31,988 nucleotides of DNA from a virus. The stretch covers positions 1-31,988 of the IMG/VR virus record IMGVR_UViG_3300048687_000051. One strand, 5' to 3'. Made by a program: the position numbers and the translations under genes. Shown here piece after piece: positions 1,575 through 29,462 of the stretch; the stretch's first letter is position 1; each line of letters begins with the position of its first letter. Under the pieces are notes generated by a model, which saw only the letters and a program-made list of their open reading frames with translations, had not been told where the DNA came from and searched no databases.

Positions 1575-2561
1575 ATGGCGATCGGATCCGGGCTCGGCGC
1601 GCAGATCGGTATCGCTGCCGAGTCGTCCTACGGCACCTATGCGGCGCCGACGAAATTCGTGGAGTTCACCAAGGAGTCGCTGCAGCTGAAGAAGGTGACG
1701 GCCCAGTCGCAGGGCATCGCGGCGAACCGGCTGCTGGCCCTGGCTGACCGTCGTGTGGTGACGCAGCGGTCGGGCTCGGGATCGCTGGAGATGGAGGTCA
1801 CCAACAAGGCCATGGGGGTCTTGCTCCAGAGCCTGATGGGGACGTCGGTGACGCCCGTTCAGCAGGCGACCACGGCGGCCTACCTGCAGACGCATCTGCT
1901 CGCGGACACGGTGGGCAAGAGCCTCACTGTCCAGAAGGGCGTGCCCCTGACCACGGGCGCCGTGACGCGGAAGAACTTCCTGGGCTGCAAGGTCATCAGC
2001 GCTGAGTTCAGCTGCGAGGTCGGCGGCATGCTGACCGCAGTATTCGAGATCGACAGCAAGGACTGCGAGGAGACCAGCGTCCTGGCGGTCGCTACGTATC
2101 CGTCCATGAGTCCGTTCCATTTCGCGCAGATGAGCCTCAAGACGGGCGCCTACGCATCGGAGGTGGCGCGCAACGGTGTCCGCAAGGTCAGCGTGAAGAT
2201 CGAGCGCCCGCAGGCCACGGAGCGGTACTACGCCGGCCAGTCCGGCACGAAGGCCGAGCCGATCGCCAACGACCTCGTCAAGATCACCGGGAGCCTGGAG
2301 GGGGACTACGTCGACACGATCCTCGACGACCTCCACACCTCGGACGCCACGACCTCGCTCATCTGGGACTTCACCGGTCCTGTGATCGCGTCCACGCACT
2401 ACGAGCGGTTCACGGTCAAGCTCCCCGCGATCAAGGTGGACGACGCGCCGCCGACGGTCGAGGGCTACGACATCGTCAAGCCGACGTTCGCGTTCACCGG
2501 CCTGTACGACGGCACGAACCAGCCGAGCATCGAGTACATGTCCACGGACATCACGCTGTAA
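1575..2561 (+). CDS. Major tail tube protein
   Basis: The product (328 residues) starts at ATG 1575 with AGGAGG at 1561-1566. It opens with the typical tail-tube N-terminus GAQIGIAAESSYGTYAAPTK, in which a new strand pattern begins after a Gly-rich lead, and continues as an all-beta protein with many VT/SGS strands (for example SGSLEMEVTNKAMG). Such proteins stack as hexamer rings around the tape measure to build the flexible tail tube. Its place before the chaperone genes and tape measure is canonical for siphoviruses. The length is somewhat above that of lambda-type tubes and may include an extra surface domain. Confidence 0.85.
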   Translation: MAIGSGLGAQIGIAAESSYGTYAAPTKFVEFTKESLQLKKVTAQSQGIAANRLLALADRRVVTQRSGSGSLEMEVTNKAMGVLLQSLMGTSVTPVQQATTAAYLQTHLLADTVGKSLTVQKGVPLTTGAVTRKNFLGCKVISAEFSCEVGGMLTAVFEIDSKDCEETSVLAVATYPSMSPFHFAQMSLKTGAYASEVARNGVRKVSVKIERPQATERYYAGQSGTKAEPIANDLVKITGSLEGDYVDTILDDLHTSDATTSLIWDFTGPVIASTHYERFTVKLPAIKVDDAPPTVEGYDIVKPTFAFTGLYDGTNQPSIEYMSTDITL

Positions 2562-2573
2562 GGGGGTCGCCTC

Positions 2574-3089
2574 ATGGCTGTCTCCTCGGTGCAGATCCTC
2601 GGCACCGGCCAGCTCCTGGTTCTGTCCAGGCAGCTACGCGCGGCGTCCGGGGCGCCGGTGCAGCGCAACATGGCCCGCCGCATCAGGCGGGCCGCCGAGC
2701 CCCTGCACCGCGATCTGCAGAACACGGTGCGCACCCTGCCGATGCGTTCGCAGGGCCGCCGTGCGGGTTCGCGCGGCGGCCCGTCCCCGACGACCCGCCC
2801 GTTCCGGGCCGCGATCGCCGCAGCGATCCGGATCAGCGTCCGTACCAGCAGCGCCCCCGGGGCCCGGGTCTTCCTCGACAAGGGGCTCCTGCCCCGGGAC
2901 ATCTCCGTCGGTGCGGTCCAGCAGATGAACAACGGCAGGCTCCGGCACCCGGTGTTCAACAACCGCAGCCGCTGGACGAACCAGTACACGCCGTCGAACT
3001 GGTGGGACCAGACGGTCCGCTCCCACACCCCCCGTATGACCGCCGAGGTCGCACGCGTCCTGGACGACGTGCACCGCCAACTCAGTTAG
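2574..3089 (+). CDS. HK97 gp10-like neck/tail completion protein
   Basis: The 171-residue basic protein starts at ATG 2574 behind AAGGGGG (2560-2566). It has a long N-terminal helical part (MARRIRRAAEPLHRDLQ), an Arg/Pro/Gly-rich middle and a motif RHPVFNNRSRW...TPSNWWD followed by a C-terminal helix, the pattern found in gp10-like proteins (the R-H-P-x-F motif plus late Trp). These act in head-tail joining. It sits after the tail tube here and not before the terminator as in HK97, which is a mild order change. Confidence 0.65.
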   Translation: MAVSSVQILGTGQLLVLSRQLRAASGAPVQRNMARRIRRAAEPLHRDLQNTVRTLPMRSQGRRAGSRGGPSPTTRPFRAAIAAAIRISVRTSSAPGARVFLDKGLLPRDISVGAVQQMNNGRLRHPVFNNRSRWTNQYTPSNWWDQTVRSHTPRMTAEVARVLDDVHRQLS

Positions 3090-3097
3090 GAACCGCC

Positions 3098-3625
3098 GTG
3101 ATCGTTCAGTACGCACCCGAGGGCGGCGACGCCGAGCGCTACGACGTGCGCAAGCTTCTGACGTCCGAGGCTGCGGCCGTGGGCCGGGTGCTCGGCATGA
3201 AGTGGCCCGAGGTGAAGGAGGCCCTGGGCGACGACGACCCGGAGGCCATGCGCGCCGTGGCGTGGGTCATGCGCAAGCGGCAGGATCCGCAGCTGAAGTT
3301 CGGCGACTTCGACCCCGGCGTCGACGAGGTCTCCTCTCTGTGGGACCGCAAGGAGATCGACAGCTTCGTCACCGAGGCGTTCAAGGTCCAGGGCAAGGAC
3401 GAGGAGCGCGACGTCTTCATGCGGATCCTCGTCCGCAACGCCGCGGACCAGGACCACGCCGAGGCCCTGATCAAGGAGCACGCCGACGAGGCCGCAGCCT
3501 TGGCCGCTGGTGAGGCCCCAAAAGAGCCGTCGCCCGTGAGCCCGACGTCGGAGAACTCCGAGACGAGTACCTCTTCCTCTTCGCTCACCTCCTCCACCTC
3601 GGACCAGCCGCTGTCGACGCCCTGA
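3098..3625 (+). CDS. Tail assembly chaperone, short form (gpG-like)
   Basis: The 0-frame product is 175 residues from GTG 3098, with AGGA at 3087-3090. Residues 1-135 are acidic and helical (DVRKLLTSEAAAVGRVLGMKW), as in gpG-type chaperones that bind the tape measure and recruit tube subunits. After residue 142 the 0-frame turns into a Ser/Thr/Pro-rich low-complexity tail, the usual sign that selection acts on the overlapping -1 frame. The frame upstream of 3098 is open but has no ribosome site and overlaps the preceding gene heavily, so the GTG was preferred. Confidence 0.8.
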   Translation: MIVQYAPEGGDAERYDVRKLLTSEAAAVGRVLGMKWPEVKEALGDDDPEAMRAVAWVMRKRQDPQLKFGDFDPGVDEVSSLWDRKEIDSFVTEAFKVQGKDEERDVFMRILVRNAADQDHAEALIKEHADEAAALAAGEAPKEPSPVSPTSENSETSTSSSSLTSSTSDQPLSTP

Positions 3626-3699
3626 CCGTCGACGACTTTTACCGGCTGGTCAACGCCATCGACGCCCACCAACGGGCTCAGCAGTCCGGAGGTGAGTGA
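3098..3699 (+). CDS. Tail assembly chaperone, frameshifted long form (gpGT-like)
   Basis: A -1 slip at CCCAAAA (3517-3523) joins the first 142 codons to the -1 frame at 3523, which stays open for 58 codons and stops at TGA 3697-3699, giving 200 residues. The extension is real-looking protein: it starts RAVAREPDVGELRDEYLFLF and ends with AVDALTVDDFYRLVNAID, which resembles the T domain of gpGT proteins. Its stop overlaps the ATG of the tape measure gene. The slippery heptamer is in the correct phase (C CCA AAA). The frame logic is read directly; the frequency of slipping is unknown. Confidence 0.85.
3517..3523 (+). other. Programmed -1 frameshift slippery heptamer CCCAAAA
   Basis: The heptamer fits X XXY YYZ in phase with the chaperone frame (codons CCA 3518-3520, AAA 3521-3523). 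A short GTCG/CGAC pairing lies a few bases downstream (about 3529-3546) and might act as a stimulator, but that is weak. Confidence 0.85.
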
Positions 3700-6600
3700 T
3701 GGCCGATCGTCGCCTGTCCTTCCTGCTCGACGGCCGTGACGGTCTCTCCCGCGTCCTGGACCGGGCCGGGGACAACGCGGTCCGTCTGCACCGCCGGTTC
3801 TCCGCGGCGACGACGAACACGACCATCGCGTTCAACCGGCTCACCGGGGCCGCGGACCGCAACGGCCGGCAGATCACCGCGTCCATGCGCAACGGGCAGG
3901 CGGCAACCGCCCGGTTCACCACGGACGCCAACGGCCGGCTGCGTGACCTGCGCGGCCGGTTCGTCGCGGCGGGCGCCGGTGCCCGCCAACTGCAGGGCGA
4001 CATGAACAACCTGCGCGGCCCGATGCGCGGTGCTGCGGCCGCGACCGGCGAGGCCAGCGCGGCGGGCGGGGCACTGGGCCCCGTCTTCGGGGCGGTCGCC
4101 GCGGCGATCGGGCTGTCGCTCCTGCCCGCGCTGGGCGCCCTCGTCCCGATGATGGCCGGTGCAGGCCTGGCCGCGGGCACCCTGAAGCTGGGGTTCTCCG
4201 GCATCGGTGACGCCGTCACCGCGGCAGGCGAGGACAAGAAGAAGTACCGCGAGGAACTGAAGAAGCTGTCGCCGGAGTCCCGCAGCCTCACCAAGGAACT
4301 GGTGAAACTGAAGGACGAGTTCGGCGACGTCGGCAAGGACATCCAGAAGGTCATGCTGCCCGGCTTCACCCGGGCCCTGAAGGACGCGCGACCGGTCGTC
4401 GACATCCTCGGCGACGGCATGGTCCAGCTCGGCCGCGGGTTCGGCGAGGCGGCACGCGGTGCGGGCCGGCTGTTCCGGTCCGGCGGGTTCCAGGCGGACC
4501 TGAAGACGAACCTGAGCTTGGGCATGTCGTTCGTGCGGGAGCTCGGCGGCGGGTTCGGTTCCCTGCTCCGCGGACTGCTCGATTTCGGAGCCAAGTCCAA
4601 GCCCACCCTGAACGCCTTCAGCACCGGGCTGTCCGGTCTGCTCGGCAAGGGCGGCGGCGGCCTGGTCGGCATGTTCCGCGGCCTCGAGGTCGGCATCAGC
4701 GGCAGCGCAAAATTCCTCGACGGCCTCTTCTCGATGATCAACCAGGTGCTGCCTGCGATCGGCCGGTTCGCCGGTGAAGTCGCCCGCGCCACGGGGCCGC
4801 TCCTCGGCGAGGCGTTCAAGCTTGCCGGTGACACCGCAGCCTCCGGGTTCGACACCCTGGGCAAAGCGATGAAGGGGCTCAGCCCCGTCTTCAAGGACCT
4901 CGGCTTCGGGGTCCGCGCCACACGGGAAATCTTCGCCATCATCGCCCCGACCATCCGGGACGTCGGAGCTGCGATCTTCGGCAGCCTGCTGCCCAGCTTC
5001 TCCTCGATCGACCAGGCACAGGGCCCCCTGCAGCGGCTCAACGGGTGGATCCAGGCAAACAAGGGATCCATCCAGGAGATGGCCCGCATCATGGGCAACG
5101 GCTTCGTCGACATGGCCAGCGCCGCAATCCAGCACCTGCCGGGGATGCTCGGCATCTTCAAGGTCGTCACAGGTGGGATGGTCGCCGCGCTCGGCGGTGT
5201 CCTGCACGCCGCGGCGTCCGCGTTCGGCTGGATCCCCGGGATCGGCGACAAGCTGAAGGGCGCCGACAAGGCGTTCGCCAGCTTCCAGACGGACTTCATC
5301 TCCGGACTGGCCGCAGCCCAGCAGTCGGCGCAGACCTTCGCCGACAACGCCCTGCCCAAGCTGCAGGCCGGCAAGCTGAAGATGGACATCAACAGCTGGA
5401 ACACTCAGATCGAGACGGCCAAGGCCAAGCTGAAGACGGTCCCGCCGTCGAAGCAGGCCGCGATCCGGGCGACCATCGCCGACCTGCAGAACAAGGTGGC
5501 CGCAGCGAAGCGGGACCTGTCGACCTTGCAGAACCGCGTCATCACGGTTACGACCAGGTTCGTCACGGTCGGGGACTCCAGCGCCGCCCGCAACGGAGCG
5601 TCGCACGGCTCGGCCCTGAAGTACGCATCGGGTGGTCTGGTCGGCTACCCGGGCGGCGGCATGGTCACCGGCCCCGGTACCGGGACGTCGGACAGCATCC
5701 TGGCCCGCGTCTCCAACGGCGAGTTCGTCATCAAGGCGAAGTCCGTCGCCCGGTACGGTGCCCGGTTCCTCGCCGCGATCAACGAGGGCCGCCTGGGCAT
5801 GGCGGCCACGGTCGGCAACGCGGGCGGCAGCATGGCCGGCGCCGGAGCGGAAGCCGGGCGCGGGCTGCAGGCAGGTCTCCGGGCGTCGGTGTCCGGGGTC
5901 GACGGCGCCGCGCGGGTCATGGCGGCCGGGGTCGAGGCCGGGGTGCGGGCAGAGCTGGAGATCGCGTCTCCGTCGAAGAAGATGAAGGCCCTGATGAAGG
6001 ACGTCGGGAAGGGCCTGATCCTCGGCCTGACCGGCGAGAAGTCGAAGATCGCTGCCACCGCGAAGGACCTGGTCGCAGACATCTGGGCTGCGTGGAAGGG
6101 CGTCAAGACCAGCAAGGACTCCGCCCTGGTCGCGATGGTGAAGCGGGACACGGCCAAGCTCCAGAAGCTGGCGTCCGCCCGGGACAAGCTGGCGGCCACG
6201 TTCGCCGAGGCCGGGCAGTACGCGGTGTCGCTGAAGGCCAACGCCCAGCAAGCCGCAGGGCTCGGCAACCTGGGGATGTCGGACGAGGAGGTGACCGCGG
6301 GCGGCATCCAGGCCGGGCTCCAGCAAAAGCTGGCGCGCGTCAACCAGTTCGCCCGCTACGTCGCCGACTTGGCCAAACGTGGCCTGTCGAAGTCCCTGCT
6401 GCGGCAGGTCATCGAGATGGGCCCGGACGCCGGGTACGCCTACGCGTCGGCCCTGTCCGGGATGAGCAAGAGTGCTCTGGCCGGGGTCACCGCGACGCAG
6501 ACCAAGTTGGACACCGCGGCGAAGAATGTCGGCAACATGGGCGCCGACCTCATGTTCGACAGCGGCGCCAACGCCGGGAAGGGCTTCCTGAAGGGGCTGT

Positions 6601-6998
6601 CCTCCCAGCAGGCCGCCATCGAGAAGCAGATGGTGACAATCGCCAAGGGCATGGACAAGGCGATCCGCAAGGCCCTGGGGATCAAGAGCCCCTCGACCGT
6701 GGCAGCCGAGTCCGGCGGGTTCTTCACCAAGGGCCTGGGCGTCGGAGCCATCAAGCAAATCCCCTTCCTCGACCGCGCGGTCACCAAGGTCACCGACCGA
6801 ATGTCCTCGGCCCGCCCAGCCGTCGGCCGGCCCGCAATCGTCGGGGCTGGAGAGGGAGCGGGACGACAGACCGTCATCGAGAACCACTTCCACATCGAGG
6901 CCATGGACCCGCTCTCCGCAGCTCGCGAAGTACAGAAGGTCCTGGTCAGGCTCGGCCGTAATCAGGGCACAACGATCACCCTCACCCCTGGGAGGTAG
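3699..6998 (+). CDS. Tape measure protein
   Basis: The product has 1099 residues from ATG 3699; GGAGGTGAG lies just upstream, and the in-frame GTG at 3696 is less likely. It is the longest gene here and follows the frameshifted chaperones, as in nearly all siphoviruses. Hydrophobic stretches lie near residues 124-164 and 482-520, often found in tape measures that insert in the host membrane. Near residues 648-697 is the common motif block GTSDSILARVSNGEF, and SPSKKMKALM (about 751) and SPSTVAAESGG (about 992) match the repeated S-P-S motif of Gram-positive phage tape measures. By the usual 1.5 angstrom per residue rule the tail would be about 165 nm. No peptidase or lytic transglycosylase motif was recognised. 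Confidence 0.92.
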   Translation: MADRRLSFLLDGRDGLSRVLDRAGDNAVRLHRRFSAATTNTTIAFNRLTGAADRNGRQITASMRNGQAATARFTTDANGRLRDLRGRFVAAGAGARQLQGDMNNLRGPMRGAAAATGEASAAGGALGPVFGAVAAAIGLSLLPALGALVPMMAGAGLAAGTLKLGFSGIGDAVTAAGEDKKKYREELKKLSPESRSLTKELVKLKDEFGDVGKDIQKVMLPGFTRALKDARPVVDILGDGMVQLGRGFGEAARGAGRLFRSGGFQADLKTNLSLGMSFVRELGGGFGSLLRGLLDFGAKSKPTLNAFSTGLSGLLGKGGGGLVGMFRGLEVGISGSAKFLDGLFSMINQVLPAIGRFAGEVARATGPLLGEAFKLAGDTAASGFDTLGKAMKGLSPVFKDLGFGVRATREIFAIIAPTIRDVGAAIFGSLLPSFSSIDQAQGPLQRLNGWIQANKGSIQEMARIMGNGFVDMASAAIQHLPGMLGIFKVVTGGMVAALGGVLHAAASAFGWIPGIGDKLKGADKAFASFQTDFISGLAAAQQSAQTFADNALPKLQAGKLKMDINSWNTQIETAKAKLKTVPPSKQAAIRATIADLQNKVAAAKRDLSTLQNRVITVTTRFVTVGDSSAARNGASHGSALKYASGGLVGYPGGGMVTGPGTGTSDSILARVSNGEFVIKAKSVARYGARFLAAINEGRLGMAATVGNAGGSMAGAGAEAGRGLQAGLRASVSGVDGAARVMAAGVEAGVRAELEIASPSKKMKALMKDVGKGLILGLTGEKSKIAATAKDLVADIWAAWKGVKTSKDSALVAMVKRDTAKLQKLASARDKLAATFAEAGQYAVSLKANAQQAAGLGNLGMSDEEVTAGGIQAGLQQKLARVNQFARYVADLAKRGLSKSLLRQVIEMGPDAGYAYASALSGMSKSALAGVTATQTKLDTAAKNVGNMGADLMFDSGANAGKGFLKGLSSQQAAIEKQMVTIAKGMDKAIRKALGIKSPSTVAAESGGFFTKGLGVGAIKQIPFLDRAVTKVTDRMSSARPAVGRPAIVGAGEGAGRQTVIENHFHIEAMDPLSAAREVQKVLVRLGRNQGTTITLTPGR

Positions 6999-7001
6999 CG
7001 C

Positions 7002-9455
7002 ATGCCCGTGATGGTGGAGATGGGGTGGGGCGGTCTCGTCCAGTACCCGTGGTCGATCACGTGGACGGACATCACGGACCGCGTCGACCAGGTGCAGGGG
7101 GTGACCATCACCCGGGGCGCGTCCGACGAGCTGTCGGAGACGCAGCCGGGCACAGCCACCATGACCCTGGACAACCAGGACGGGGCGCTCACTCCGGGGA
7201 ATCCGGCCTCGCCGTTCTTTCCCTACGTGCGGAAACTAGCCCCGATCCGGGTGAGCATCGCGCACTACCCGGCCCGGACCGGGGCCAGCCCGTGGCAGGG
7301 CGCCCAGCTTGTCGACGACTTCTCGGCCGCGCTGGACACCGCACTGTGGACCACGCGCACCGGAACGAATGTGACGACGGGTGGACGGCTGCGGACGACC
7401 GACACCCCCGGTGTGTCCGCCGGGGTACGGACCGGGCAGTCGTGGATCCTGAAGGACAACGCCGTCAGTGCGCGGCTGGTGACGCCCCCCACGGCGGGCG
7501 CCTCGTCGGCGGCCACGGCCCGGATGACGGTCCACTCGACGACAGCGGGCACCCGCCTGGTGTGGCTGCTCGACCGGGTGGCCGGGACGCTCCAGGCCCG
7601 CAACGAGGTGGGCGGCGCGGACGGGGCGCCGACCACGATCACGTGGTCGGCGATCGATCACCTGTGGCTACGGATCCGGGAGACATCCGGGGTCACCGTC
7701 TGGGAGACGTCGCCGGACGGGTGGGACTGGACGGTCCGCCGGAGCCTGGCCACACCCGCCTGGGTGGCCACCCCGCAGGCCACGTCCCTGGAGCTGTCCG
7801 CCCAGCGCACAGGGGGCAGCGCCGGGTACGTGGAGTGGGACTCCGTCGGCGCGCAGATCCGCCCCCGCTTCTGGGGCATGGTCAACGAGTTCCCGGTGCA
7901 GTGGGAAGGGCTGGCCAGCACGGTCAGCATCAGCGCGACGGACCTGTTCAAACGCCTCAACCGCGCGCCCGCACTGCGCTCCATGCTGGGCATGGAGGTC
8001 CTGACCGTCGACACGCTGACCGGGGCCTACTCGTTCCCGGCCGCGTACTTCCCGCTGTCCGAGCCTGCCGACTCAACGGCGGCGGGTGACGTCATCGGCC
8101 GCGGGGCCGGGGCCCTGGCCTCCACCCAGGTCGGCGCGGGCGGCAGCCTGACCTTCGGGGACGAGGGAGTCCCGGAGACCGGAGAGACCTGCCTGACGCT
8201 CACCCCCGCCTCGGCCACGGCCGGGCGGTATCTGGTCGGGGACCTCGGCCTGCAGACCGCCGCGGACTTCACCACATGGATCGTGCACACCCAGGTCTGG
8301 ATCAAGACCAGCACCGCGGGCCGGGCCATCCTCGGCATGCACGACGTCATCCTCGACAACCAGTTGGTCCTCGCCCTCAACGGGTCCGGGGTCCTCACGG
8401 TGGAGACAACCCAGGACGGCAGCCCCCTCACCATCGGGACCACCACCAGTGGCAACTTGGCCGACGGAGCGTGGCACCACATCGTCTACGACGGATCTCT
8501 GCACCGGGTCTACGTGGACGGGGTGCCCGTCAGCGGGACGCTCGTCGGGACGTCGACCCAGAACATCCGCACCCTGTACATCGGCGGCTACCGGTCGGCC
8601 AGGCTCTTCTCCGGGCAGATCGCGCACGTCTCCCTGCACCTGGCCAACGGTCCCGTCGGCTCCGTGTACGCGGCCAGCAGTGACGCTCGTACCGGGTTCG
8701 CCGGGGAGTCCGCGGACTGGCGGGTCGAGCGCCTCGCCCGGTACGCGGGCCTGTCCTCGGTGACCATCCACGGGGACACGCACGACCCGATCGCCTCACA
8801 GGGACCCGGCGGCACGGGCGTGGTGGCCCGGCTGCGGGAGGTCGAGGCCACCGAGTCCGGACGCCTGTACGCGGAGCGCGACTACTACGGGCTGGCCTAC
8901 CAGTCCCGCGATGTCCGCTACAACCCGAACAGCGACGAGGAAGTTTTCGCGGTCGCCTACGCGGACCTGGAGCCTGGCACGCAGTTCGCGGACGACGACC
9001 AGAAGTTGTGCAACGAGGTCGAGGCGACGCGCCCGGGCGGAGCAACGCAGACCGTGAACGCGCCCTCGTCGATCTTCGCGTATGGCACGTACCCGCAGCA
9101 GCTGAACATCCTGAAGACCAGCGATAACTCGGTGACCGACGCGGCGTACTGGCTGGTGTCCCGCTACGCCAACCCGCAGCCCGAACTGCGGGAAGTGCCG
9201 ATTGAGGCGTACACGATGCCCGACTACCTGAGCACCCTCGACGCCGATATCTCCTCGTACTTCACCGTGTACGACCTGCCGTCGCAGGCGCCCACCGCAG
9301 AGACCCGGGTCACCGTCGAGGGCTACACCGAGACGATCAAAGAGCAGTCCCACGAGATCCAGTTCCGGACGTCGGCCAGTACCACCGACTCCGTGTGGAT
9401 CCTCGGGGACCCGGACTATTCGCAGCTCGACCAGACCACCCGCCTCGCCTACTGA
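7002..9455 (+). CDS. Minor tail protein / tip hub with LamG-like domain
   Basis: The 817-residue protein starts at ATG 7002 behind GGGAGG (6990-6995). Residues 1-90 (WTDITDRVDQVQGVTITRG... MTLDNQDGALTPG) match the N-terminus of actinophage minor tail proteins that follow the tape measure. Residues about 105-285 form one beta-rich insert (DDFSAALDTALWTTRTG), and residues about 425-550 form a clear LamG/concanavalin-like domain (DGAWHHIVYDGSLHRVYVDG). The C-terminal 250 residues are hub-like. It probably joins the tail tube to the receptor-binding tip, with the lectin-type folds contacting cell-wall sugars. It seems to merge roles that other phages split over two genes. Confidence 0.8.
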   Translation: MPVMVEMGWGGLVQYPWSITWTDITDRVDQVQGVTITRGASDELSETQPGTATMTLDNQDGALTPGNPASPFFPYVRKLAPIRVSIAHYPARTGASPWQGAQLVDDFSAALDTALWTTRTGTNVTTGGRLRTTDTPGVSAGVRTGQSWILKDNAVSARLVTPPTAGASSAATARMTVHSTTAGTRLVWLLDRVAGTLQARNEVGGADGAPTTITWSAIDHLWLRIRETSGVTVWETSPDGWDWTVRRSLATPAWVATPQATSLELSAQRTGGSAGYVEWDSVGAQIRPRFWGMVNEFPVQWEGLASTVSISATDLFKRLNRAPALRSMLGMEVLTVDTLTGAYSFPAAYFPLSEPADSTAAGDVIGRGAGALASTQVGAGGSLTFGDEGVPETGETCLTLTPASATAGRYLVGDLGLQTAADFTTWIVHTQVWIKTSTAGRAILGMHDVILDNQLVLALNGSGVLTVETTQDGSPLTIGTTTSGNLADGAWHHIVYDGSLHRVYVDGVPVSGTLVGTSTQNIRTLYIGGYRSARLFSGQIAHVSLHLANGPVGSVYAASSDARTGFAGESADWRVERLARYAGLSSVTIHGDTHDPIASQGPGGTGVVARLREVEATESGRLYAERDYYGLAYQSRDVRYNPNSDEEVFAVAYADLEPGTQFADDDQKLCNEVEATRPGGATQTVNAPSSIFAYGTYPQQLNILKTSDNSVTDAAYWLVSRYANPQPELREVPIEAYTMPDYLSTLDADISSYFTVYDLPSQAPTAETRVTVEGYTETIKEQSHEIQFRTSASTTDSVWILGDPDYSQLDQTTRLAY

Positions 9456-26176: not shown

Positions 26177-28315
26177 ATGACGGACACCATCCCCGGCCCG
26201 GTCAACGGGCACACCATCGAGAAGCTGCACCCCGTCCCCCCGGAGGCCGTCACCGAGCCCCGCAGCGAGCAGCCGCCCCCGGCGCCCGAGGACGCGACCG
26301 GCACGGCCGCCCCGGTCATGGTCGACAACAAGAACCTGCCCTCACCTGGGGTGACGCAGGAGAAGCGGCGACCCATCCTCGCCGGATGGCTGAAGAACCG
26401 GTCCGACTTCCTGGCCACCACCCGGCACGCCGGGGCGAACGCCGGATACGCCGCCCTGTTCCACGGGCTGCGCCTGCCCGTCTACTCCGCACGGCTCACC
26501 CTGATGGCCCCGCGGGGCGCCTGCCGGTTCATCGCCGACACCAACCGGTGGGTGTGGGACCGCGAGGCCGCGCCACTGCGGGAGGCCGCCGTGCGTGCCG
26601 AGGACGCCGCCGAATACATGACCCTGTCCAGGCTGCGCGCCAACCGGGTACGGCTCCGCGGCCTGGTCACCGTGGTCGCCGCCGTGTTCGGTACCGGGTT
26701 CGCCCTGTGGCTGTACGTCATGGCCCCCGGCTTCCTGTACGCCTTCGCCACCGGCGGTGTGCTGCTGTGCGGGCTGGCCGGCCAGGAGAAGGACGCCCCG
26801 GTCATTGGCCCCGCCGTGCTGAAGACCGAGGTCCAGAAGCTCACCGGCTCGATCGTGCTCCGCGGCCTGGACGCCGTCGGCAACGCGAAGATCTCCGCCG
26901 CGATCAAGAAGGGCGGCGACATGAACGGCATGCGGTTCGTCTCCGAGATCGTCCGCGACGGACCCGGATACCGCGCTGACCTGGACCTTCCCTACGGTGT
27001 GACGCCCGAGGACATCATGGAAGCCCGCCGCCCGCTCGCCTCCGGGCTGCGCCGCAAGCTCGGCTGCGTGTGGCCCGCCCCCGACCCTGACGAGCACGAA
27101 GGCCGTCTCATCCTGTGGGTTGGCGACAAGCCGATGAACGAGACGACGAAGCCGGCGTGGCCGCTCCTTAAGGACGGGCAGGTCGACCTGTTCCGCCCCG
27201 TCGTGTTCGGCAACGACCAGCGCATGCGCGAGATGGCCGTGACGCTGATGTTCGCCTCCGTCGTTGTCGGCTCCATCCCCCGCATGGGCAAGACGTTCCT
27301 GATGCGGCTGCTGCTCCTGATCGCCGCCCTAGACCCGCGGGCCGAGATCCACGCGTTCGACTTCAAGGGCACCGGCGACTTCAAGGCCCTGGAGCCCGTG
27401 TGCCACCGCTACCGGGCCGGTGAGGAGCCCGAGGACGTCGAGTACGTCGTCCAGGCGCTGCGGGAGCTCAAAGCCGAGCTGCGGCGCCGCGCCAAGGTCA
27501 TCAAGGGCCTGCCCAGCAGCATCTGCCCGGAATCGAAGGTGACCAGTGCCCTGGCCAGCGACAAGCGGTACGGGCTCCACCCGATCGTCGCCGGGTTCGA
27601 CGAGTGCCAGGTGCCCTTCGAGGACGAGAAGTACGGGGCCGAGATCGAGGCGATCTGCACCGACCTCACGAAGCGCGGCCCGGCGCTGGGCATCGTCGCC
27701 ATGTTCGGCACCCAGCGGCCCGACGCGAAGTCCCTGCCGCCGGGCATCAGCGCCAACGCCGTCCTGCGGTTCGCCCTGAAGGTCATGGGGCACACCGCGA
27801 ACGACATGGTGCTGGGCACCGGTGCGTACAAGGCCGGGATCCGGGCCACGATGTTCTCCCGCTCCGACCGGGGCATCTGCTGGATGTCCGGTGAGGGCGA
27901 CGACCCGCGCATCGTCGCCTCCGCGTTCGTCGACGCCCCCGCCGCGGAGAAGGTCGCCGCCCGGGCCCGGCAGCTGCGCGAGGCCTACGGCAACATCACC
28001 GGGCACGCCATCGGGCAGGGCCCCGAAGCGTCGGTCGGCATGGACGTCCTCGGCGACGTCCTGAAGGTCATCGCCGCCGACGAGAAGACCATGTGGTGCG
28101 AGCGGATCGCCGCCCGCCTGGCCGCGCTCCGGCCCGACACCTACGCCGGGTGGAAGGCCGAGAACGTCACCACCGCACTCAAGCCGTGGGGCGTGAAGAC
28201 CGACCAGGTGTGGGGGCAGACCGACGAAGGCGAAGGCAAGAACCGGCGAGGCATCAAGCGCGCCGACGTGGCCGCCGCGATCACCCGCCGCGACGCCGAC
28301 CGGGCCGCCACCTAG
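26177..28315 (+). CDS. TraB/FtsK-type DNA translocase
   Basis: The 712-residue protein starts at ATG 26177 behind AGGAGA. Residues about 160-203 hold two membrane segments. The motor domain has Walker A GSIPRMGKT (K372), Walker B VAGFDECQ (D475, E476) and a late motif GTQRPDAKSLPPGISANAV. The C-terminal part (TWCERIAARLAAL-like segment and beyond) looks like a winged helix for reading DNA. Proteins of this type move double-stranded DNA through septa: TraB in Streptomyces conjugation and FtsK in segregation. Its context (SpdB-like gene, small genes, nearby repeats) supports transfer over chromosome segregation. The AR-rich end and lack of a long linker separate it from host FtsK. Confidence 0.9.
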   Translation: MTDTIPGPVNGHTIEKLHPVPPEAVTEPRSEQPPPAPEDATGTAAPVMVDNKNLPSPGVTQEKRRPILAGWLKNRSDFLATTRHAGANAGYAALFHGLRLPVYSARLTLMAPRGACRFIADTNRWVWDREAAPLREAAVRAEDAAEYMTLSRLRANRVRLRGLVTVVAAVFGTGFALWLYVMAPGFLYAFATGGVLLCGLAGQEKDAPVIGPAVLKTEVQKLTGSIVLRGLDAVGNAKISAAIKKGGDMNGMRFVSEIVRDGPGYRADLDLPYGVTPEDIMEARRPLASGLRRKLGCVWPAPDPDEHEGRLILWVGDKPMNETTKPAWPLLKDGQVDLFRPVVFGNDQRMREMAVTLMFASVVVGSIPRMGKTFLMRLLLLIAALDPRAEIHAFDFKGTGDFKALEPVCHRYRAGEEPEDVEYVVQALRELKAELRRRAKVIKGLPSSICPESKVTSALASDKRYGLHPIVAGFDECQVPFEDEKYGAEIEAICTDLTKRGPALGIVAMFGTQRPDAKSLPPGISANAVLRFALKVMGHTANDMVLGTGAYKAGIRATMFSRSDRGICWMSGEGDDPRIVASAFVDAPAAEKVAARARQLREAYGNITGHAIGQGPEASVGMDVLGDVLKVIAADEKTMWCERIAARLAALRPDTYAGWKAENVTTALKPWGVKTDQVWGQTDEGEGKNRRGIKRADVAAAITRRDADRAAT

Positions 28316-28412
28316 GCCCGAGCAGGGCCGCTAGACCTAGCACCCCCACCCGCTAGGTCTAGCAGGCCCGCTAGCACCGAATAGGGCCCCTGAGCAGGCA
28401 TCTAACGCCTAG
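28312..28412. repeat. CTAG-rich repeat cluster, candidate clt/transfer site
   Basis: CTAG, a rare tetramer in Streptomyces DNA, occurs seven times: 28312, 28331, 28337, 28353, 28359, 28371 and 28409. GCTAGACCTAGC (28330-28341) and GCTAGGTCTAGC (28352-28363) are a perfect 12-bp inverted pair with a 10-base C-rich loop. Further units share GCAGG and CCGCTAG (28322-28334 and 28363-28374). It directly follows the translocase gene. TraB proteins bind 8-bp repeats in the clt locus at this place in plasmids such as pSVH1. Confidence 0.7.
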
Positions 28413-28465
28413 CGGGGCCCCTCACCACACCAGGAATCACCCGCATCCGGGAGGAGAACAACCCC

Positions 28466-28708
28466 GTGGTCATCACTAGCGCCGCCCTGCTCGCCGCCAC
28501 CCTCTACTACGCCGCTGTGTGCGCTCTGCGGCCGTTCACCCCGTGCCGAAGGTGCCGCGGCCTCGGCCAGATCGAACGCTTCAAGAAGCCCCGCCTGTGC
28601 CCCCGCTGCCACGGCAACAAGCTCCGGCTGCGCGTCGGCCGGCGCGCCTTCAACGCCTGGCAGCGCACCCGCCAGGCAGGCACCCGCCCCACCCCTGGAG
28701 GTCTGTAA
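28466..28708 (+). CDS. Half-DnaJ zinc protein with membrane segment
   Basis: The 80-residue protein starts at GTG 28466 behind GGGAGGAG. Residues 1-22 are hydrophobic (VITSAALLAATLYYAAVCAL). They are followed by CRRCRGLGQ and CPRCHGNK, two of the four CxxCxGxG motifs of DnaJ, so one zinc site can form. Arg-rich residues follow. It is a known type of small gene next to translocase genes in Streptomyces elements, with no known role. It may sit on the membrane near the transfer complex. Confidence 0.7.
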   Translation: MVITSAALLAATLYYAAVCALRPFTPCRRCRGLGQIERFKKPRLCPRCHGNKLRLRVGRRAFNAWQRTRQAGTRPTPGGL

Positions 28709-28776: not shown

Positions 28777-28826
28777 CGCAGAAGCAGCCTGCGCTGTCAG
28801 ACCCCACTGGAACCATGAACGTTAAA

Positions 28827-28857
28827 GCCCCGGCGGCTGCGTCAACAGCCCCGGGGC
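28827..28857 (+). promoter_or_regulatory. Leader stem-loop before GIY-YIG gene
   Basis: GCCCCGG (28827-28833) pairs with CCGGGGC (28851-28857) and GGCTG (28835-28839) with CAGCC (28846-28850), with one bulged C and a CGTCAA loop. It lies between the previous hairpin and the AGAGGAG of the next gene. It would be coding if the gene began at ATG 28815. Confidence 0.6.
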
Positions 28858-28883
28858 GCGGCCGATCGTCAGAGGAGATCGAC

Positions 28884-29462
28884 TTGTACGAGGATAACCG
28901 CGTCCACATCTGGGGCCCCGACACCCAGGCCCGTCCATTGGACCCCGAGAACCTCACTGCCGCCGGGCGTCTGATCGACAGGGACGACCCCGCCCTGACC
29001 GAGATCCTTCAGGCGTTTGGCAGCATCGCCGGCCAGTTGGGGAATCTCGCCGAACCCGACGAAGACACGGTGCGCATGGCCATCCGACTCGGCCGAGCCC
29101 GCTACCTGCGCATGCAGGAGGGCACCGAACCGCCACGAGGCACCTCTGCCCGCGAACGCACCAACGGCTGGATCTACTACATCCGCCGCGGCGCCATGGT
29201 CAAGATCGGCACGACCGTAGACCTGTACAAGCGCATGGCGGCTCTCCTGCCGGAAGAAGTGCTCGCCATCGAGCCAGGAAGCCACGCCAAGGAAGCAGAG
29301 CTCCACCGCAGTTTCCGTACTCTCCGCGTCCCTGGACAGCGCGAGTGGTTCTACGCTGGCAGCGAGCTCCAAGCGCACATTAAGCGCGTCCGCGACTGCA
29401 ACGTGCCTCCGCCGGCCGATCTGCCGACCCTCCCGTCTGCAGCTGGCATCCTGGACGAGTGA
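28884..29462 (+). CDS. GIY-YIG superfamily (T5orf172-like) protein
   Basis: From TTG 28884 the protein has 192 residues, with AGAGGAG (28871-28877) 6 bases upstream. ATG 28815 would add 23 residues but has no ribosome site and runs through a hairpin, so it was not chosen. Residues about 95-165 show GWIYYIRRGAMVKIGTTVDL, RMAALLP, E..LHRSFRTLRV and WFYAGSEL, the T5orf172/MUG113 form of GIY-YIG. Such domains are nucleases or DNA-interacting parts of mobile elements. The N-terminal half has a helical segment (LTEILQAFGSIAGQLGNL) of unknown use. The nuclease function is inferred, not shown. The stop overlaps the next start. Confidence 0.75.
   Translation: MYEDNRVHIWGPDTQARPLDPENLTAAGRLIDRDDPALTEILQAFGSIAGQLGNLAEPDEDTVRMAIRLGRARYLRMQEGTEPPRGTSARERTNGWIYYIRRGAMVKIGTTVDLYKRMAALLPEEVLAIEPGSHAKEAELHRSFRTLRVPGQREWFYAGSELQAHIKRVRDCNVPPPADLPTLPSAAGILDE

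Follow-up and report, generated by a model that had tools for sequence, protein, structure and literature searches.

The window (the whole 31,988-base stretch of DNA analysed here, a virus record) carries genes for a tail tube, a tape measure and a serine integrase, together with genes for a Prim-Pol, an AAA protein, a DUF2637 protein and an FtsK/TraB-like translocase. The Prim-Pol, AAA_25 protein, DUF2637 protein and translocase make up an AICE-like replication and transfer set in this phage (16895-19089, 23025-24842). Among INPHARED phages we detected neither a protein match to the translocase nor a match to the array described below, and the sole DNA-search match to phages was a stretch of 77 bases (82%) in Mycobacterium phage LilSpotty, which concerns a gene other than the translocase, namely the start of a T5orf172/MUG113 protein gene at 28815-29462. 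The features of the locus are as follows:

26177..28315, plus strand: gene for an FtsK/SpoIIIE/TraB-type DNA translocase of 712 aa (PHROG 1358; sub-threshold Pfam FtsK_SpoIIIE)
28094..28312, plus strand: predicted C-terminal winged-helix domain, approximately residues 640-712 (AlphaFold2 model)
28211..28213, plus strand: codon of Trp679, in the first wing strand; by co-variation, the residue tracks the centre of the DNA palindromes
28247..28249, plus strand: codon of Arg691 (arginine in 125/125 TAGC-type translocases, isoleucine in both TAGAG-type ones)
28330..28413, plus strand: translocase-linked array of seven half-site positions, about 84 bp, very probably a clt-type site
28330..28341, no strand assigned: unit 1, GCTAGACCTAGC, an inverted pair of TAGC half-sites (sites 1 and 2)
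28352..28363, no strand assigned: unit 2, GCTAGGTCTAGC, the reverse complement of unit 1 (sites 3 and 4), 10 bp behind it
28370..28375, plus strand: site 5, GCTAGC
28402..28406, plus strand: site 6, CTAAC, where relatives mostly have CTAGC
28409..28413, plus strand: site 7, CTAGC
28466..28708, plus strand: gene for a small membrane/zinc-ribbon-like protein of the kind usually found behind the array (weak Pfam DnaJ_CXXCXGXG match)

The translocase matches PHROG 1358 (FtsK/SpoIIIE-like) with an E-value of 3.4e-22 and Pfam FtsK_SpoIIIE only weakly (E 0.001, 19.0 bits, under the 24-bit cut-off), and no family match was obtained for it in NCBIfam. According to an AlphaFold2 model of residues 615-712 (mean pLDDT 87.6), in which helices are followed by a two-strand wing, the C-terminus is a winged helix with a wing hairpin. 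A fold search against solved chains returned mixed nearest matches, many of them winged-helix proteins and none clearly the nearest; the best was 2dt5 (Z 7.2, rmsd 3.2, 76 aligned), and FtsK gamma was not among the matches listed.

Attention was drawn to this locus by a sequence-only reading, which noted seven CTAG in about 100 bases behind the translocase gene, regarded the tetramer as one that is strongly avoided in Streptomyces, and proposed that the repeats are the DNA target of the translocase. The cluster is real: CTAG starts at 28312, 28331, 28337, 28353, 28359, 28371 and 28409, and these seven occurrences within 101 bp form the densest 101 bp of the window. Neither 300 first-order Markov sequences nor 20,000 random placements of 16 CTAG exceeded four per 101 bp, and the cluster is therefore far above chance. 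Avoidance is likewise borne out, given that the whole window contains 16 CTAG against 38.9 expected from dinucleotide shuffles, indicating that the tetramer is avoided outside the cluster. The 12-bp inverted pair (28330-28341 and 28352-28363) is perfect, as had been described, and no further copy of GCTA-N4-TAGC occurs anywhere in the window. However, while the count of seven was correct, the seven do not belong to a single array: the CTAG at 28312 overlaps the stop codon of the translocase and lies outside the conserved array, whereas the remaining six are part of an array common to relatives, of which site 6 (28402) reads CTAA in the window, so that 6/7 conserved sites are kept.

The extent of this conservation was apparent in a search of viral contigs with the window translocase protein, which returned 11 relatives. 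Counting CTAG in related phages, a check that the sequence-only reading had itself put forward, we observed seven at fixed offsets in 10/11 of these relatives, all found by protein alone; in the ten, the array starts 18-46 nt past the point where the translocase alignment ends, and the eleventh (L013) has a degenerate version. The conserved plan places the seven CTAG at offsets 0, 6, 22, 28, 40, 71 and 78. A scan of a genome collection with a pattern of the two 12-mers yielded at least 115 loci, nearly all from actinomycetes; three from other phyla (L036, L040, L058) lack the later sites and, for both reasons, look like chance matches. At 82 of the 115 loci listed the array immediately follows a translocase gene (81 in the orientation used by our search script, and L124 in the opposite one), 10 bp separate the 12-mers in 112, seven CTAG stand at the fixed offsets in 73, and a protein cluster of the small membrane/zinc-ribbon kind is present at 61. 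Read backwards, the pattern had no matches in the 24 genomes scanned. The same array and translocase family are also found without structural phage genes, as in NZ_CP107792.1, an 18.4-kb circular record with an integrase, a Prim-Pol and a DUF2637 protein.

The link between array and translocase family is also observed when the array plays no part in the search. In a protein-only sample of 61 genomes, comprising 30 translocase places, the array was present at 20/21 places with at least 37% identity (19 from fetched regions and one from the earlier 24-genome set), the single miss, L212, being a partial protein match; a TAGC array was found at 0/9 places with 29-33% identity, several of which bear other repeats (GGTAGAGGGG-like words in L204-L209, CCGGACA in L213). 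In a pooled tally, which allowed up to two mismatches to the plan and includes translocases found via the array pattern, the plan was met by 57/60 translocases with at least 60% identity, 21/21 at 50-60%, 20/21 at 43-50%, 24/27 at 37-43%, 3/5 at 33-37% and 0/11 below that, while 0/2,900 shuffled downstream sequences came within two mismatches. At two loci (L025, L062) the array overlaps the stop codon and fails the plan matcher though present. Translocases without a clear array at 37-50% identity are L174, L212 and L217, to which a held-out set, with identity measured against another query, adds L226, L230 and L231. With the exception of these six, the case that would have refuted the proposed target, namely the same translocase without the repeats, was not found at identities of at least 37%. 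L217 is the Pseudonocardia plasmid pPaSha2 (CP052773.1), which has a 43%-identical translocase and a holin gene but no TAGC array, and in which the next gene begins 24 bases behind the translocase. Behind distant ftsK-like genes (L204-L213 and L216, 25-39% identity) the corresponding place holds other repeats (GGTAGAGGGG, GTTTCG, CCGGACA and others), and each distant translocase clade may have its own address.

What is constant across translocases is GCTA-N4-TAGC, 10 bp, a second GCTA-N4-TAGC and then single TAGC sites, with the N4 varying from clade to clade. More distant translocases from the same genomes keep this plan but not CTAG (GCTAACGTTAGC, GCTACCGGTAGC, GCTATCGATAGC). Consequently, the 8-bp unit GACCTAGC favoured by the sequence-only reading is not the conserved element in relatives, this role falling to the TAGC half-sites; we rejected both GACCTAGC and CTAG as the unit, since in relatives of 35-56% identity their letters are altered and TAGC is retained. 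A short word, ACCTGC or similar, recurs in or just behind the repeat region in L215 (pSVH1) and L185-L203.

The variation at the centres of the palindromes follows that of the protein. Arrays were classed as CG or non-CG from the central dinucleotide of both palindromes, and the class was set against every usable protein column in translocases matched from before residue 110 to beyond 690 and with no more than two mismatches in 16 core letters (105, or 104 aligned translocases after removal of one duplicate). Trp679 ranked top of 678 columns with 0.84 of 0.90 bits, and the next four (681, 687, 682, 688) are all its neighbours in the wing. Tryptophan occupies position 679 in 0/33 proteins with CG-type arrays and in 70/71 others, a concordance of 103/104, the exception (L118) having a wing tryptophan that is displaced by the alignment. 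On a tree of 206 branches, built from the protein alignment cut before residue 600, the array class changes 11 times, and 10/10 changes of Trp679 coincide with such a branch (8/10 under another tie rule), making it the best of 1,751 residue splits (hypergeometric p 3.6e-16). In the held-out sample (71 genomes from another family, with 29 places found and 19 translocase regions fetched) the rule was obeyed by 8/9 clean arrays, while L237 is mixed; L230, with a wing N and a non-CG centre, goes against it, and there the gene has an internal stop and the array a single 12-mer. The proposed check, whether the motif co-varies with the recognition domain, thus gave a strongly positive answer, with the co-varying residues lying in the wing and not shown to be in helix 3. 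These patterns show a translocase and an array evolving as lock and key. Two further comparisons were set aside: for the order of the array (AC-first or GT-first) the best columns lie outside the winged helix, which looks like shared descent, and for GC/GC versus AC/GT centres, columns 677 and 689 were among the best, but seven cases are too few.

A second dialect is found in L176 and L222, where the arrays consist of TAGAG-type units in place of TAGC-type ones. The wing of these translocases reads NRIG, with Arg691Ile in 2/2, position 691 being arginine in every one of the 125 TAGC-type translocases. L241 contains a TAGAG array without a translocase.

Array copies without a translocase are not confined to this case. 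No translocase match was found at 33 of the 115 loci listed, some of which are cut by the end of the locus (e.g. L054, L133), and in 26 wider regions that we fetched, one of which (L154) lacks the later sites, an HMM search detected a translocase within 9 kb in 0/26. A tyrosine integrase is nearby in 19/26, and five of the regions (L148, L149, L153, L156, L166) lie inside 8-11 kb elements bounded by 45-51 bp repeats of tRNA genes (att). Integrase, att repeats and absence of an own translocase thus coincide in 5/26 regions, and these five meet the criteria of a mobilizable integrative element on all three counts, although there are no data on movement in trans by a helper. Some translocase relative is present elsewhere in 22/24 genomes with such arrays and none in 2/24. 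In two genomes (G005, G021) the translocase-less copies are CG-centred but the translocase that adjoins an array has a non-CG one, and local hijacking is therefore not evident in them. The element in L153 spans 10.4 kb between its att sites (-7880..2545 around the array) and carries an integrase, a Prim-Pol and the array; a gene for an HK97-type major capsid protein lies at L153:6189-7313, and the element looks like a phage satellite bearing a transfer address. In L166 (G021:C16:78971-79248) a single translocase-less element holds two arrays, separated by 244 bp. Arrays that lack a translocase and have an identical 33-bp core are found four times in the assembly G007 (C13, C16, C23, C44) and twice in G002 (C75, C94), mostly near contig ends, which suggests multi-copy elements.

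We interpret the array as a cis-acting recognition and loading site of the clt type for the translocase encoded upstream of it, a reading to which we assign a probability of roughly 0.86 in the absence of binding or transfer data. Given that array and motor change together, and that the address is also present in small mobile elements lacking a motor, the array is very probably the address of the motor, and binding by the winged helix is the simplest account of their lock-and-key evolution. The proposal that the array is the DNA target of the translocase is in this way supported by co-variation (Trp679, and 8/9 in the held-out set) and by the place behind the gene, while binding itself remains an inference. 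Under this reading, C-terminal winged helices would bind TAGC half-sites in double-stranded DNA, the wing (Trp679 and its neighbours) reading the middle of each GCTA-N4-TAGC pair and Arg691 recognising the C of TAGC, although such single-residue contacts are likewise inferred. The two inverted pairs and three single sites may then position several subunits in a defined geometry, and a hexamer would subsequently pump the double-stranded circle along the mycelium or into a recipient hypha. That a double-stranded DNA pump is loaded in this way for conjugative transfer is inferred by analogy with TraB and clt, where repeats are found at the same place: in the available portions of the sources, TraB-type transfer requires a single protein and moves double-stranded DNA (PMC12857230), and clt is recognised by the C-terminal winged helix of TraB (PMC3583192).

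A potential alternative is that the translocase reads the array for a task other than conjugation, such as steering or spreading phage DNA in the mycelium, segregation, or self-regulation of the operon. The window is, after all, a virus record with genes for a serine integrase, a tail tube and a tape measure; a phage can do without conjugation, and the array sits within an apparent operon, close behind the translocase in the ten viral relatives. However, elements that lack structural phage genes, such as NZ_CP107792.1, share this plan and translocase family, and self-regulation fails to explain why the array is retained in translocase-less elements; we consider this alternative unlikely, but not negligible. 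It is also conceivable that another protein of the element reads the array, as a replication origin or an integrase or regulator site, given that elements with the array often have integrases and Prim-Pol, DUF3987 or AAA proteins. Yet these replication genes and integrases differ among elements and lie at variable distances, whereas the translocase adjoins the array at 82 of the 115 loci listed, and the window integrase is about 13 kb away. Co-variation was examined for the translocase only and for no other protein, but we regard a reader of this kind as highly improbable.

The array might instead act in mRNA between the translocase gene and the one that follows, whether as a terminator, an attenuator or a processing site. 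The window segment has a stable fold (z -5.8), the 12-mers complement each other (as they do in nearly all translocase-bearing loci listed) and have co-varying centres, and the next gene is on the same strand in 76/81 translocase-bearing genome loci listed. Nevertheless, pairing beyond the 12-mers does not clearly exceed that in shuffles save at a few positions (the clearest pairs being -2/35 and 13/20), which led us to reject a long hairpin, and in CG-type arrays the outer N4 bases vary so as to break pairing; both observations fit double-stranded half-sites better than an RNA stem. A known RNA family was also rejected, all Rfam matches falling below the gathering score, and no hairpin followed by a T run was found in 28150-28700, in agreement with the earlier view that a simple terminator is the less likely explanation. 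Moreover, the array centres track the protein wing, and in 12/25 translocase-less copies the nearest gene downstream lies on the opposite strand, making a role in mRNA unlikely in those. An RNA function therefore retains very little credibility beside that of a loading site for the translocase.

We recognised no published description of the array in the literature searched, which is weak evidence, since subscription journals were mostly outside the search. The clt is already known as a kind of site; those parts of the literature that were examined contained no mention of this plan or motif, of the wing code, or of an extension to phages and translocase-less elements. In its available text, a 2022 paper on elements of Streptomyces asks if TraB encoded by one element may be hijacked by a different one, and notes that even for the archetypal AICE pSAM2 a clt motif had not been described (PMC9513070). 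For one large translocase family, the array provides an address at the level of sequence, together with a first code linking residues to bases and with candidate hitch-hikers; the question of TraB hijacking thereby becomes directly testable, and the address is also placed in temperate phages. More speculatively, and with somewhat less than even confidence, we propose that, throughout the actinobacteria, temperate phages, integrative conjugative elements and satellites without a translocase have in common one portable address for the transfer of double-stranded DNA, namely the array. The seven-site plan would exist in dialects, one per translocase clade, determined by a small number of wing residues (679, 681, 687, 688, 691), so that who moves whom could be read from sequence; translocase-less elements, including the one with a phage capsid gene, would borrow a helper translocase, and the window phage would move by conjugation as well as in particles.

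Among known systems, the clt of the Streptomyces venezuelae plasmid pSVH1 consists of 8-bp TRS repeats, which the sequence-only reading gives as GACCCGGA. In its sequence (NC_007431.1) GACCCGG repeats lie directly behind traB, the place that the array occupies in the window, so that the likeness to clt proposed by the sequence-only reading holds with respect to position. It does not hold for the 8-bp direct repeat: GACCCGG is absent from the window array, which does not have the pSVH1 TRS motif and consists instead of TAGC half-sites, both inverted and direct, at fixed spacing (inverted pairs with 10-bp spacing, plus three single sites). The two translocases themselves share only approximately 28% identity, and this in a part of the protein. 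Motors of the same family are also known to read short DNA words with a winged-helix gamma domain, namely KOPS for E. coli FtsK and SRS for SpoIIIE; these are polar words scattered over the chromosome, whereas the window site is one compact array. As far as the accessible part of the source describes them, the clt loci of pWTY27 (TGACACC, CCCGCCC), pIJ101 and pJV1 resemble the array in being cis sites at or near the transfer gene with direct and inverted repeats, but their motifs are unrelated and no fixed seven-site plan is described there (PMC3583192). Finally, the translocase-less elements are similar to IMEs, which, in the portion of the source available, have an integrase and att bounds and lack transfer machinery of their own; however, the IMEs described there use relaxases and single-stranded transfer (PMC5704250), whereas the translocase-less elements would use a double-stranded, TraB-type address.
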